From NCBI GenBank assembly GCA_021851065.1, contig JAJZJQ010000007.1, positions 1 to 57,025 of the forward strand: a stretch of 57,025 bases of DNA. The letters run 5' to 3'. This DNA comes from Microcaldota archaeon (lineage in GTDB: Archaea; Micrarchaeota; Micrarchaeia; Micrarchaeales; CABMGC01). Under the pieces are notes generated by a model. That model was not told the origin of the DNA, ran no database searches, and saw only the letters and a program-made list of their open reading frames with translations. The position numbers and the translations under genes were made by a program. This document shows, piece by piece, positions 43,770 to 47,699 of the stretch. Position 1 is the stretch's first letter. Each line of letters begins with the position of its first letter.

Positions 43770-43778
43770 CCTTCAATC
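43770..43778 (+). repeat. Target-site duplication, left copy
   Basis: CCTTCAATC directly before the element; the same nine bases recur directly after it at 47691-47699. Confidence 0.7.
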
Positions 43779-43783
43779 GGTTT

Positions 43784-43827
43784 TGTCGCATAATCGGCAC
43801 CTTTGATGAAGTGTCGCATTCGGCACC
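43784..43827. repeat. Left terminal inverted repeats (outer and inner)
   Basis: TGTCGCATAATCGGCACC (43784-43801) and TGTCGCATTCGGCACC (43812-43827), 28 bases apart start to start. The inner copy is exactly complementary to 47642-47657. Tandem copies suggest two transposase-binding sites per end. Confidence 0.85.
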
Positions 43828-44087
43828 TATCGCTTTAGTCCAAATTCTACATAAGTTCGATTTATAGGATTACGTTTTTTAGCCATTATTTCTTGACCGT
43901 CTTTCAGAGCATTTAACACTAACTCAAAATCGTTACCAGTAAGATGTTTTTTCTTTTTAATAGCTTTTGCCATAACATCCAAACTCTTACTACCTAAGTT
44001 CTGTATTACTGTTATTCTGAATATAAAAGAGCTTATATTTTGACCAAAAGTCTTTAATTTGGCAAATATCAGCCCAATTATACTCAT
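43827..44087 (-). CDS. Transposon-borne unknown small protein (86 residues)
   Basis: Basic protein with a hydrophobic amphipathic N-terminus (SIIGLIFAKLKTFGQNISSFIFRITVI) that could be membrane-associated, then a Lys-rich AKAIKKKKHLTGNDFELVLNALKDGQE segment. Its stop codon overlaps the inner terminal repeat by one base. Last of three minus-strand genes. No family recognised. Confidence 0.55.
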   Translation of the reverse strand: MSIIGLIFAKLKTFGQNISSFIFRITVIQNLGSKSLDVMAKAIKKKKHLTGNDFELVLNALKDGQEIMAKKRNPINRTYVEFGLKR

Positions 44088-44104
44088 TAAATCACTACTT
44101 AGAA

Positions 44105-44479
44105 TTAGAACTCTATCTTACCGTAAGTCTTAACTACAAATAGCCTAAACCATTCAAGCATCTTGTTCTTAAAGTTCCTATCCGCATCTGCATTAGTCTT
44201 TTGTAAAAGTTCATCAAGTAGTGTCGATGCTAACGAATCGAACATATCCTGATACTTGTTGTATACTACTAATTCATTAGAGTTCATTAGTTTGGTTGCT
44301 GAAGTTCCCTTGTTCAAATTTTGAATCACTTCTTCAGTTAAAATTTCAGAAATCTCAATAACTCTTGTTTCCGAAGGAACATCAGCAAATAAATCCACCT
44401 GATAAAGTTGCGAATTTCTTAGATTAGGGAGGAATGCTTGTGGCTGTTTCAAAACAATATCTTGGAAATATACATTCAT
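44105..44479 (-). CDS. Transposon-borne unknown protein (124 residues)
   Basis: Acidic, helical protein (YQVDLFADVPSETRVIEISEILTEEVIQNLNKGTS; YQDMFDSLASTLLDELLQKTNADADRNFKNKMLEWFRLFVV). Its ATG directly follows the stop of the upstream gene (44480-44482), so the two are translationally linked, and it is 17 bases from the next. No family recognised. It could be a transposition accessory or a regulator of the modification gene; nothing decides between these. Confidence 0.6.
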   Translation of the reverse strand: MNVYFQDIVLKQPQAFLPNLRNSQLYQVDLFADVPSETRVIEISEILTEEVIQNLNKGTSATKLMNSNELVVYNKYQDMFDSLASTLLDELLQKTNADADRNFKNKMLEWFRLFVVKTYGKIEF

Positions 44480-44773
44480 TTAATCACATTTGCTTAATTC
44501 CATTTTACCTTCTGCGTTTATCTTCAACCTCCATTTTGAATTTAGAGTATATGGTATTGGCTCTTTCGGTTTCAGCATCAATACCATATCTATTTTAGGT
44601 AGTATGTCCCCTATTTGATTTGAAGGGATTACCTTTGACTCTAATAGCTTAGCTCGTAGTTGGTTGTCTACCTTTATCATACTTCCAAAATTAACCTGAA
44701 CTACACTTTCGCCTGTCAACTGGTGAGATATATAGTAAATACCTACAACTTCTAAATCTATTTCAGTAGCCAT
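44480..44773 (-). CDS. Transposon-borne unknown protein (97 residues)
   Basis: Starts at ATG 44773 (MATEIDLEVVGIYYISH); a TTG at 44782 is an in-frame alternative. Beta-rich pattern (VVQVNFGSMIKVDNQLRAKLL, VLMLKPKEPIPYTLNSKWRLKIN) resembling a small beta-barrel or AbrB/OB-like fold, but no signature is recognised. First gene of the three-gene minus-strand block. Confidence 0.55.
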   Translation of the reverse strand: MATEIDLEVVGIYYISHQLTGESVVQVNFGSMIKVDNQLRAKLLESKVIPSNQIGDILPKIDMVLMLKPKEPIPYTLNSKWRLKINAEGKMELSKCD

Positions 44774-44861
44774 AATCAACACAAATTAATTATGAAACAT
44801 GACTATCGCTTTGATAGTTTAATGAAGTTAGACTTTTTATACCTTGCTGTATGCTACGGAA

Positions 44862-45008
44862 CTACCGCTTATCCTTTTTACGAGGTAAATTCCAGTATGG
44901 AGACTTGCACTTAGGGCAAACTTTGGGTTCCTCTTTGGTATATTCTCTTGGGAACCAGATATGACCGCAACGTTCACATTTATAACCATCAATTTTTATC
45001 TTCGCCAT
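44862..45008 (-). CDS. 48-residue zinc-ribbon protein of the transposon
   Basis: MAKIKIDGYKCERCGHIWFP, then VCPKCKSPYWN and a basic end. C-x2-C and C-x2-C give a compact zinc ribbon. Small archaeal proteins of this type are widespread and often lie near mobile elements. It is divergent from the transposase, and the gap between them carries two copies of a palindromic element. Possible accessory DNA-binding or regulatory protein. Confidence 0.75.
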   Translation of the reverse strand: MAKIKIDGYKCERCGHIWFPREYTKEEPKVCPKCKSPYWNLPRKKDKR

Positions 45009-45016
45009 AGTTTAAC

Positions 45017-45086
45017 TATATTACCATAAGGTATATAAATCTAACGTCGTATTCATTAGTTATAGTATATTACCAAAAGGTATATA
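45017..45086. promoter_or_regulatory. Two copies of a palindromic operator between zinc ribbon and transposase
   Basis: TATATTACC-ATA-AGGTATATA at 45017-45037 and TATATTACC-AAA-AGGTATATA at 45066-45086, 49 bases apart. The near-palindromic halves (TTACC / GGTA) and AT-rich flanks may combine TATA function with repressor binding. Likely controls both divergent genes. Confidence 0.6.
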
Positions 45087-45125
45087 TACCTGATTAGCTA
45101 TAGTATTACTGTGTAAAGTGATGTT

Positions 45126-46301
45126 ATGGTTGCACAAACCGACCTTATAGGAGAATCAGCAAAGAGGAAAGAGAGAGCAGTAGCAGTCCTTAATACGAGA
45201 GTGCCAGAAAGGGTTAATGATACAACCTACCTTATCCCTTCATCTGATGGCTCTACCAAATACAAGGTAAGGCATCTTGATAGCTATTCCTGCACCTGTC
45301 CTGATTATACAAACAGATGCAAGGATAAGGGTCTATACTGCAAACACATTAATGCCATAATCCTTTTCAATAAGATGAAGAACAAGGTAGAACTTGACGA
45401 CTTCCAAGTAGAGGATATAACCGATGAGAAGAACTGCCCTAACTGCAAAAGCGATAAGATAATGCAAAAGGGCATAAGAAAGAACAAGTCAGGAACTAAG
45501 CAGAGGTATAAATGCTCTGATTGTGGCTCTTACTTCGTTCTTGACCCTGCAAAAGGCATCAAGGGTAATGCCCGTATTCTCTGCTTGGCTCTTGATATGT
45601 ATTACAAGGGCAATTCGCTTAGGGATATCCAAGATACGCTATACCAGTCATTCGGGCTGAAACTGCACCACGAAACGATTAGACGCTGGAATAACCGATT
45701 TATGAGCAAAATAAACACTTATACAGACCAGTTGAAGCCCCAGACAAGCGACACTATGCACATAGACGAACAGATGATACAGATAGGCAAGGATAATGAG
45801 TATTGCTGGAACGCTATGGACAATAAGACAAGGTTCTTACTCGCCACACAAATAACGAAGATTAGAAGAATAAAGGATGCAAGAGGCATAATACAAAAGG
45901 CAAAAACCAAGCTATCTCAAAAGCCCGACTTTGTAGCGACAGACAAAGGACAGTTCTACAAGAAGGCTATAAGGCGAGAGTTTCCTACCCATGCTAAGAA
46001 TTACGTTCACTTCAATAGGGTAGGAGTAAATCACATCACAAAGAAGGTGGATAACCAAATCATAGAGCGTTATCACGGCACATTCAGAGAAAGAGATAAG
46101 GTTATTCGTGGTTTCAAAAGTGAGCAAACAGCACAGCGATATATAGATAATTGGCAGACCTATTACAACTTCGTAAGACCTCACACAACTCTTAATGGTC
46201 TAACCCCTGCACAAGAAGCAGGGATAGGAATAGGGCTTGACAGAAACAAATGGTTAGGACTACTCAAACTTAGCCAGTCCGCCACAACACAATTATTATA
46301 A
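45126..46301 (+). CDS. DDE transposase with SWIM zinc finger and zinc ribbon
   Basis: Catalyses movement of the element. The 391-residue protein has three parts. A SWIM zinc finger (SCTCPDYTNRCKDKGLYCKHI, residues about 55-75; C-x-C-x-n-C-x-H). A four-Cys ribbon (CPNC...CSDCGSYF, about 103-138) like the InsA/IS1 DNA-binding ribbon. A DDE core with DEQMIQIG (first Asp, about residue 215), VATDKGQFY (second Asp) and NQIIERYHGTFRERDKVIRGF (Glu), ending in an HTTLNGLTPAQEAG motif that is also seen in IS6/IS3-like integrase cores. Ribosome site GTGAT lies just before ATG 45126. Confidence 0.88.
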   Translation: MVAQTDLIGESAKRKERAVAVLNTRVPERVNDTTYLIPSSDGSTKYKVRHLDSYSCTCPDYTNRCKDKGLYCKHINAIILFNKMKNKVELDDFQVEDITDEKNCPNCKSDKIMQKGIRKNKSGTKQRYKCSDCGSYFVLDPAKGIKGNARILCLALDMYYKGNSLRDIQDTLYQSFGLKLHHETIRRWNNRFMSKINTYTDQLKPQTSDTMHIDEQMIQIGKDNEYCWNAMDNKTRFLLATQITKIRRIKDARGIIQKAKTKLSQKPDFVATDKGQFYKKAIRREFPTHAKNYVHFNRVGVNHITKKVDNQIIERYHGTFRERDKVIRGFKSEQTAQRYIDNWQTYYNFVRPHTTLNGLTPAQEAGIGIGLDRNKWLGLLKLSQSATTQLL

Positions 46302-46336
46302 GGATTAAGATGCAATATACCACTACAAAATGCGTG

Positions 46337-46393
46337 GCTACGCTCAACAAATGCCATCTGTTTCTGGGTGATGAATTTCGTTGTTAGCGTAGC
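46337..46393. repeat. Inverted repeat between transposase and methyltransferase
   Basis: GCTACGCTCAACAA (46337-46350) and TTGTTAGCGTAGC (46381-46393) are complementary apart from one bulged base, separated by 30 bases. A TATA-like TTTTTAAGA follows at about 46400, before ATG 46425. It could be an operator or an mRNA hairpin. Confidence 0.6.
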
Positions 46394-46424
46394 GTATGCT
46401 TTTTAAGATTTACGAGATGATATT

Positions 46425-47639
46425 ATGACTATGATTGCGAATACAATTTATGAAGGGGACAACAAAGATATTCTTCCTAATTTTCCTGACAAGAGTGTAG
46501 ACCTTATTTATGCTGACCCTCCTTTCTTCTCAAACAGGCATTATGAACTAATATGGAACGACGGCGCAGAGATACGGGCTTTTGAGGACAGGTGGAAGGG
46601 CGGTATCTACAATTATGTTGAATGGATGAAGGAGAGAATTCAGCAATGCAAGAGAATACTGAAGGACGATGGCACTATGTTCCTGCATTGCGACGCAAGC
46701 GCAAATGCGCATCTGCGTATCTTGATGGATGAGATATTTAACGGCAACTTCCTTAATGAGATAATCTGGTGCTACGAAACAGGGGGCAGGGCTACAAAGT
46801 TCTATCCTCAGAAGCACGACACTATTTTCTGGTATTCAAAGACTAAGGATTACAATTTCTATTACGACCAAGTAGCACTACCAAGAGACACAAGCACCAT
46901 GCATGAGAGCATATACGTTGATGAGAAGGGGAAGAAATATCAGCGAAACATAAAGAATGGAAAGGAATACAGATACTACTTGGACAAGGGGACGCTTCCT
47001 AATGACTGGTGGACGGACATACAGGCAATAAACCCATCTGCAAAGGAACGCTTGGGCTATCCAACGCAGAAGCCAGTTGCACTACTCAAACGCATAATAA
47101 ACACAGCGTCAAAGCAAGGAGACCTCGTATTAGACCCCTTCTGCGGTTGTGGGACTACTCTTGTAGCATCTCACGAACTCAAGAGAAATTGGGTAGGCAT
47201 AGACGTAAGCCCTACCGCATGTAAGCTCATGCGAGATAGGCTAAGGAAGTCATACAGCATAAGCGTTGAGATTATGAGAGGCAAGGAGGACATAGCTTAT
47301 CTGAAGAAATTGCCACCATTTGAGTTTCAGAATTGGGTGGTCGCTGGCTACTTCTTGGGAAGGGTGAGCGACAGGAAGTCAAGCGACATGGGAATTGACG
47401 GTTATACCTCAATACAAGATGGCGTTAATCCGATACAGGTCAAGCAGTCAGAGGATGTAGGCAGGAATGTTGTAGACAATTTTGAGACTGCTATAAGACG
47501 TGCTAAAAAGAAGAAGGGTTACATAGTTGCCTTCTCTTTCGGTAGAGGGGCTTATGAAGAAGCTGCAAGAGTCAAGAATCAGGAAGGCTTGGATATAGAA
47601 TTGAAGACAGTTAAGGAACTGCTGGATGAAAGAAGATAG
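46425..47639 (+). CDS. DNA methyltransferase fused to an Mrr-like PD-(D/E)xK nuclease domain
   Basis: A beta-class site-specific DNA amino-methyltransferase: DPPF at residues 31-34 (catalytic motif IV) precedes the SAM-binding DPFCGCGTT (motif I, about residue 240), and GYPTQKP (about residue 210) marks the target/SAM region. Residues from about 298 read as an Mrr-type nuclease: PFEFQNWVVAGYFLGR, then SSDMGIDGY (active-site Asp), IQVKQS (Q-x-K) and a helical GYIVAFSFGRGAYEEA end. N6-adenine methylation is likeliest for D-P-P-F, but N4-cytosine cannot be excluded. The single chain could be a combined restriction-modification enzyme or a methyltransferase with a recognition/nickase domain. It is the last gene of the transposon, ending 2 bases before the inner repeat. 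Confidence 0.85.
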   Translation: MTMIANTIYEGDNKDILPNFPDKSVDLIYADPPFFSNRHYELIWNDGAEIRAFEDRWKGGIYNYVEWMKERIQQCKRILKDDGTMFLHCDASANAHLRILMDEIFNGNFLNEIIWCYETGGRATKFYPQKHDTIFWYSKTKDYNFYYDQVALPRDTSTMHESIYVDEKGKKYQRNIKNGKEYRYYLDKGTLPNDWWTDIQAINPSAKERLGYPTQKPVALLKRIINTASKQGDLVLDPFCGCGTTLVASHELKRNWVGIDVSPTACKLMRDRLRKSYSISVEIMRGKEDIAYLKKLPPFEFQNWVVAGYFLGRVSDRKSSDMGIDGYTSIQDGVNPIQVKQSEDVGRNVVDNFETAIRRAKKKKGYIVAFSFGRGAYEEAARVKNQEGLDIELKTVKELLDERR

Positions 47640-47641
47640 TT

Positions 47642-47686
47642 GGTGCCGAATGCGACAAGACTATTTAGGTGCCGAGTTTGTGGACA
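47642..47686. repeat. Right terminal inverted repeats (inner and outer)
   Basis: GGTGCCGAATGCGACA (47642-47657) is the exact complement of the left inner repeat. GGTGCCGAGTTTGTGGACA (47668-47686) is the outer unit, 26 bases on, and shares GGTGCCGA and the terminal GACA with the rest. Confidence 0.85.
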
Positions 47687-47690
47687 ATAC

Positions 47691-47699
47691 CCTTCAATC
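47691..47699 (+). repeat. Target-site duplication, right copy
   Basis: CCTTCAATC, identical to 43770-43778. Confidence 0.7.

Follow-up and report, generated by a model that had tools for sequence, protein, structure and literature searches.

What kind of unit is the AT-rich block of genes that lies between paired repeats in the genome of a Micrarchaeota archaeon, and how does the enzyme it encodes, a DNA methyltransferase joined to an Mrr-type nuclease, belong to it? The block is located in a 57,025-nt stretch of contig JAJZJQ010000007.1 (assembly GCA_021851065.1), which we refer to as the window. A first-pass annotation described it as a transposon with a restriction-modification (R-M) unit of its own. 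The explanation we favor as a whole, and consider probable, takes the region as a single, intact unit transposon of the IS6 family (transporter insertion sequence, IS) in Micrarchaeota. In the transposon, the gene of the fusion enzyme follows a leader RNA. We regard this RNA as a candidate for a new regulatory class that acts on R-M genes, and as what is most interesting here.

Boundaries of the element and its relatives

The complete transposon spans positions 43779–47691 of the window (3,913 bp, 39% GC). Its edges are built as follows.

43771–43778, no strand: left copy of the 8-bp target-site duplication CTTCAATC
43779–43827, forward strand: left terminal repeat, with outer site GGTTTTGTCGCATAATCGGCACC and inner site TGTCGCATTCGGCACC; the same layout is found in eight relatives
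47642–47691, reverse strand: right terminal repeat, with inner site TGTCGCATTCGGCACC and outer site GGTATTGTCCACAAACTCGGCACC
47692–47699, no strand: right copy of the 8-bp target-site duplication CTTCAATC

The inner pair (43812–43827 and 47642–47657) matches at 16 of 16 bases, and the outer ends (43779–43801 and 47669–47691) are related to each other, which bears out the paired repeats of the first-pass annotation. That annotation ended the element at 47690 and took the flanking direct repeat to be 9 bp long. Its left end stands and the duplication is present, but the right end is corrected to 47691 and the duplication to 8 bp. The ninth base that matches belongs to the element, being its terminal C, and the 9-bp reading was rejected because all relatives begin with GG, end with CC and have exactly 8 bp duplicated. 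Perfect 8-bp duplications flank nine of nine elements (the window and eight relatives), with about 1.5e-5 expected per element by chance. The boundaries at these nine independent insertions are not due to chance.

GC content is 0.39 within the element, against about 0.45–0.53 around it and roughly 49% in the whole window, and six open reading frames (ORFs) occupy the whole space between the inner repeats. Both the AT-rich composition and the six genes filling this space agree with the earlier description. The repeats bound all nine elements and the nuclease motifs of the fusion are intact, the two points on which the annotation had made its reading depend.

The eight relatives with the same ends come from other Micrarchaeota (G005, G027, G031, G040, G045, G046, G198 and G234). 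The element of G005 is split over two contigs (L045/L046), and the contig ends are joined by the common duplication CTGAAAAG. At every element end the motif TGTCGCA occurs twice, once as an outer and once as an inner copy, each time with a tail that is specific to the element. The tails (CGGCACC, CGTCAGT, CATTACC, CGGTTGT) vary between elements and are broadly common to the sites of one element (L047–L051, L066, L067), the pattern that would be expected of transposase-binding sites drifting together.

An IS6-type transposase with zinc-binding modules

45126–46301, forward strand: IS6-family transposase with an N-terminal SWIM-like CxC...CxH motif and zinc ribbon, and the DDE residues D214, D273 and E314 (assigned by NF033587, PF13610 and invariant residues)

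The transposase is 391 aa long, with extra N-terminal zinc-binding modules. It scores 127.1 bits against the NCBIfam model NF033587 (IS6), just above the cutoff of 125, and its Pfam match is DDE_Tnp_IS240 (PF13610). The zinc ribbon is of the IS1/IS1595 type (30.1 bits, cutoff 28). Across eight aligned transposases the SWIM-like CxC...CxH is invariant, with Pfam SWIM itself below threshold (13.5 vs 19.6 bits), and the catalytic D214, D273 and E314 are likewise invariant in the alignment. The AlphaFold model of this protein is unusable (predicted template modeling score, pTM, 0.32).

Among 301 Micrarchaeota genomes, 29 hold transposase matches at E <= 1e-10, at least some of them distant or decayed. 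Named contigs place the hosts in Candidatus Micrarchaeota, and one more distant transposase (41% identity) occurs in a Thermoplasmatota metagenome-assembled genome (MAG). Meanwhile, we notice distant SWIM/zinc-ribbon IS6-like transposases of about 40% identity at L073 (393–1535, Thermoplasmatota MAG) and L138 (1701–2960, viral contig). A decayed distant transposase with a stop codon is present in the same host genome as the window (L062, G000:C31:3683-4584).

A review of the IS6 family (PMC7986276) describes 8-bp duplications and GG tips with a conserved TGT core, together with zinc-finger extensions in the long clades h and i. Its single passenger-carrying member is ISDsp3, with one hypothetical passenger. 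Like IS6/IS26 insertion sequences (clades h and i; PMC7986276), the present elements combine a DDE domain, GG tips with a TGT core, an 8-bp duplication and the N-terminal zinc-binding extension of some clades. The inverted repeats of IS6 members also hold (c)TGT(t) and caaa motifs; here, GG and TGT are found at every end, and a caaa-like ACAAA at one end only in most elements. In contrast to the IS6/IS26 norm, the N-terminus joins a SWIM-like motif to a zinc ribbon, and the end sites are duplicated (bipartite). The norm of a short IS (about 0.7–0.9 kb, longer in clades h/i, no passengers) is also broken by elements of 2.2–4.4 kb that carry passengers to one side of the transposase or to both. 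The elements therefore agree with IS6 in features related to mechanism, whereas their size, bipartite ends and cargo set them apart. We file them as a transporter-IS variant, because small size and absence of passengers are typical but not exclusive for IS6 and the review accepts one carrier. With an IS6-family transposase, bipartite ends and an 8-bp duplication, the earlier claim that the region is a transposon holds.

The methyltransferase-nuclease fusion as exchangeable cargo

46425–47639, forward strand: 404-aa fusion of a beta-class N6-adenine-type DNA methyltransferase (residues 1–292; PF01555) and an Mrr-type nuclease (about residues 293–404; PF04471)

The passengers beside the transposase vary by element. 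In the window they are three ORFs without family and the methyltransferase-Mrr fusion. In the G005 element (L045/L046) the fusion is accompanied by a DUF6978 and a DUF1828 protein, which match the candidate defence pair PDC-M24A/B. The G046 element (L050, 4796–9176) carries a 796-aa HSDR_N / N6_Mtase / specificity-like protein, by its domains an independent one-protein R-M enzyme of another type. A 264-aa protein without family is the cargo in G045, and the remaining relatives hold membrane (transmembrane) or small proteins only. The fusion also adjoins element ends in G035 and G036. Because relatives that share the ends and the conserved transposase, in many cases next to the zinc-ribbon protein, hold other passengers, this comparison shows the fusion to be exchangeable cargo and not machinery. 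The idea that the fusion is essential to the element was rejected, since relatives without it exist. The first-pass view of the fusion as the element's own self-protection device is not supported either, the same ends and transposase being found with other cargo.

On the other hand, the fusion might stabilise the transposon as a selfish addiction module, by post-segregational killing of cells that lose the element. Such a role would suit a mobile element that encodes an R-M enzyme as a single protein with its motifs intact, and it fits that two unlike one-protein R-M enzymes occur within this element family. However, the majority of related elements last without an R-M gene, which means that such a gene is not needed for maintenance, and loss is rare for a single-copy element in the chromosome, as this one is. 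We consider addiction an unlikely explanation.

Residues 1–292 of the fusion match PF01555 (3.3e-53), a beta-class N6/N4 methyltransferase with CcrM, M.BceJIV and RsrI as PDB relatives, and the AlphaFold prediction has a beta-class methyltransferase fold. The C-terminal part matches the Mrr_cat domain (PF04471, 4.4e-6) with the motif D325...Q338-V-K340. When only the nuclease domain was searched against PDB sequences, no match was significant. The DPPF of the methyltransferase and D325, Q338 and K340 of the nuclease are invariant in seven of seven close sequences aligned, and GxDG...(Q/S)VK is kept in most aligned phage, plasmid and archaeal homologues. With both domains found and their catalytic motifs conserved, the single-protein fusion reported earlier aboard the element is confirmed.

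Comparison of the fusions revealed an uneven pattern of conservation. Between the window and G005 the specificity region is 94% identical and the other domains 65–70%; between the window and G035 the specificity region is 35% identical and the other domains 62–65%. These identities indicate that the specificity domain is swapped between elements. Such domain exchange would be the usual signature of restriction enzymes selected for changing or sharing their recognition sequence. From the motifs together with the domain swapping, the fusion is expected to be an active one-polypeptide R-M enzyme.

The methyltransferase-nuclease architecture is not new as such. A PADLOC model (MTase_II, PDLC03339) spans almost the entire protein, and full-length homologues occur in plasmids and phages. 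As in those fusions (PDLC03339; phage and plasmid 'DNA methylase'), a beta-class N6/N4 methyltransferase is followed by an Mrr_cat-type domain. Unlike them, the window fusion is transposon-borne, belongs to a DPANN archaeon, is short (404 aa) and has a specificity domain that elements exchange. In type IIG restriction enzymes, too, modification and cleavage domains share one chain; by its sequence, the window fusion differs from them in its methyltransferase-then-nuclease order, its beta-class motif order and its Mrr-type nuclease. Two homologues from viral contigs, L127 and L129, are set among apparent virion genes.

A second view of the enzyme is that it mainly modifies, shielding the element or its DNA from host restriction on entry, with an Mrr-like domain that only binds DNA or is vestigial. 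Its closest homologues outside Micrarchaeota do lie in viral contigs (L127, L128 and L129; 52–54% identity), and phages and plasmids commonly carry related proteins, annotated as methylases only. This view is doubtful, however: the nuclease D and QxK are conserved in archaeal and viral members, unlike in a vestigial domain, (Q/S)VK is conserved across phage and plasmid members, and the nuclease domain is conserved to the same degree as the methyltransferase core.

A pseudoknot leader RNA upstream of R-M genes

46326–46399, forward strand: pseudoknot leader RNA of the methyltransferase-Mrr gene, with P1 GCGU/ACGC and P2 GGC/GCC, then CUGUUUCUGGGUGAUGA, and a 3' domain UUGUUAGCGUAGCGUAUGC

The 120 bases that separate the transposase from the fusion resemble sequences elsewhere in the phylum, and the top-scoring similar sequences lie directly 5' of methyltransferases of unrelated classes. 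A sequence-only search model built from six members, which were picked by DNA similarity and not by their neighbours, matched 105 of the 301 genomes at E <= 0.1, about 60 of them strongly. Sixty leader loci (L187–L246) were read, and nearly all, with few exceptions, fold as an H-type pseudoknot. P1 is GCGU/ACGC with compensatory variants among the loci. P2 pairs a loop GGC with a downstream GCC, which elsewhere become GCC/GGC, GCCC/GGGC, UGAC/GUCA or GAGCUA/UAGCUC. P2 reaches at least 3 bp in 58 of 59 members, against a mean of 45.5 with loops shuffled among sequences (maximum 53; 0/1000 reach the observed count), and 23 P1/P2 cells are double-changed against 9.0 expected by pair count (0/500 shuffles reach this), figures that ignore the relatedness of the sequences and are not probabilities. 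This covariation shows, at the level of comparative analysis, a conserved H-type pseudoknot RNA in what would be R-M gene mRNAs.

A TATA box locates at a fixed position, −36 to −32 from P1, and because of this fixed distance transcription probably starts close to where the motif begins. The RNA has the same orientation as the downstream gene. Folded with exact ends, the intergenic hairpin has z = −3.1; a longer stretch folded earlier gave no significant stability. The predicted thermodynamic minimum of the leader is an alternative, mutually exclusive long hairpin, whose pairs show no covariation beyond chance, and a two-state switch is regarded as a possibility only.

The genes behind the leader link it to R-M systems. 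Among full-length leaders with a readable downstream gene, the window included, 31/37 precede a DNA methyltransferase gene, and these methyltransferases span five unrelated Pfam families (PF01555, PF02086, PF00145, PF02384 and PF07669). Three of them (L213, L216 and L228) are Mrr fusions of about 490–530 aa. The other six leaders precede a Vsr, a UvrD helicase, a PLD-type protein, a DUF6290 protein and, in two cases, no clear gene. A short form of the leader, ending at a GGGUGA Shine-Dalgarno-like sequence, precedes an NgoPII-type restriction enzyme, a Vsr-like protein and small proteins without family. Almost all genomes of the host genus have one short leader with a small protein lacking a Pfam family, and this protein is possibly an autoregulated partner of the RNA. 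We also observed GGGTGAT directly before the ATG of the small protein at L220, L221, L225, L226, L232, L233, L239, L241, L244 and L245. The host genome has three leader copies: that of the window, one at an HsdM gene (G000:C18:10136-10232) and one at a small-protein gene (G000:C35:16635-16685).

A leader that recurs at dispersed sites, with parts highly conserved in sequence, could also be a DNA operator or a small mobile repeat in place of a functional RNA. We regard this as very unlikely, as the changes compensate within stems (GGC/GCC to GCC/GGC, TGAC/GTCA, GAGCTA/TAGCTC), the leader is just downstream of a TATA box and oriented as the gene, and no terminal repeats or duplications are seen at it.

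Rfam gave no match to the leader, a literature search found no description of such an R-M leader RNA, and scans of viral contigs returned chance matches only. The small H-type pseudoknot riboswitches preQ1-I and SAM-II likewise have a hairpin whose loop pairs downstream, an A-rich linker and, as in the short form of the leader, a Shine-Dalgarno-like sequence just 3'. The leader differs from them in having no Rfam sequence match, in its association with R-M genes and in being archaeal. C-protein control of R-M systems is a protein-operator circuit. It likewise regulates R-M expression; here an RNA leader would take the place of that circuit.

Small genes of the element

43827–44087, reverse strand: ORF C, 86 aa, variable cargo, no significant family match
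44105–44479, reverse strand: ORF B, 124 aa, variable cargo, no significant family match, one weak homologue
44480–44782, reverse strand: ORF A, 100 aa, variable cargo, no family, two weak homologues
44862–45008, reverse strand: 48-aa zinc-ribbon protein, which adjoins the transposase in several relatives
45008–45091, no strand: divergent promoter region with duplicated TATTACCAxAAGGTATATA palindrome/TATA units in the gap between zinc ribbon and transposase (from repeat comparison)

The first-pass annotation counted the three unassigned minus-strand ORFs as part of the system, which we do not uphold. Homologues of ORFs A and B in the 301 genomes, outside that of the host, are weak (27–29% identity), two for A and one (27%) for B, and ORF C has no family match in a search that went no further than family scans. 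None of the three recurs with the element in relatives. The zinc-ribbon protein, in contrast, may belong to the element, because it recurs beside the transposase in G005 (95% identity), G045 (86%) and G210 (64%). The promoter region is 88% conserved over 84 nt in G005.

Evidence weighing against the interpretation

Several observations weigh against the proposed explanation. No clean empty site of the window insertion was found; genes to the right of it are conserved across the genus, and those to the left were not found beside them. For the G046 element, the search for an empty site found only the right flank in its one congener. The host genome holds only one nearly complete copy of the element. 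As for the enzyme, the nuclease helix glutamate is not invariant (one viral homologue has Q there), confidence in the AlphaFold models is low, and the phage homologues make a pure host-defence role doubtful. The G005 fusion has no RNA leader, and the leader is therefore not required by the fusion enzyme. A contaminating bacterial or viral contig, which the AT-rich island might suggest, can practically be dismissed, as the same element family is present in at least 15 Micrarchaeota genomes, long contigs included, and the flanking genes have orthologues in the genus.

Proposed mechanism and significance

In the IS6-family transposon that we propose, the transposase would bind the repeated TGTCGCA..TCGGCACC sites, four in all, at both ends, and everything between the end sites would be moved by the IS6 route (copy-in or cointegrate). 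Judging from its motifs and domain swapping, the fusion would methylate one specific sequence and cleave DNA without that mark. Its main benefit would be host immunity to foreign DNA, with stabilisation of the element as a secondary one. At the start of the fusion's mRNA, the leader would fold as a pseudoknot by the Shine-Dalgarno-like sequence and set the amount of enzyme, regulating translation or read-through of the R-M gene. We speculate that such control probably serves to let methylation precede restriction, or ties the R-M dose to a cellular signal.

A broader proposal, for and against which we see an even balance, is that the leader is a phylum-wide RNA class that senses a metabolite (for example S-adenosylmethionine, SAM, or its product) or a dedicated small protein, and coordinates unrelated R-M classes in Micrarchaeota. 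The transposon family would then spread R-M and defence genes, and this copy would carry an R-M gene already in the regulon.

IS6 elements with passengers are almost unknown, and IS6 drives gene spread in bacteria; here, an IS6-type family appears to move defence genes among ultra-small archaea. A pseudoknot with covarying stems before five unrelated classes of DNA methyltransferase would amount to dedicated RNA control of restriction-modification. Such control would make it testable how these cells avoid self-restriction on acquiring new R-M genes.

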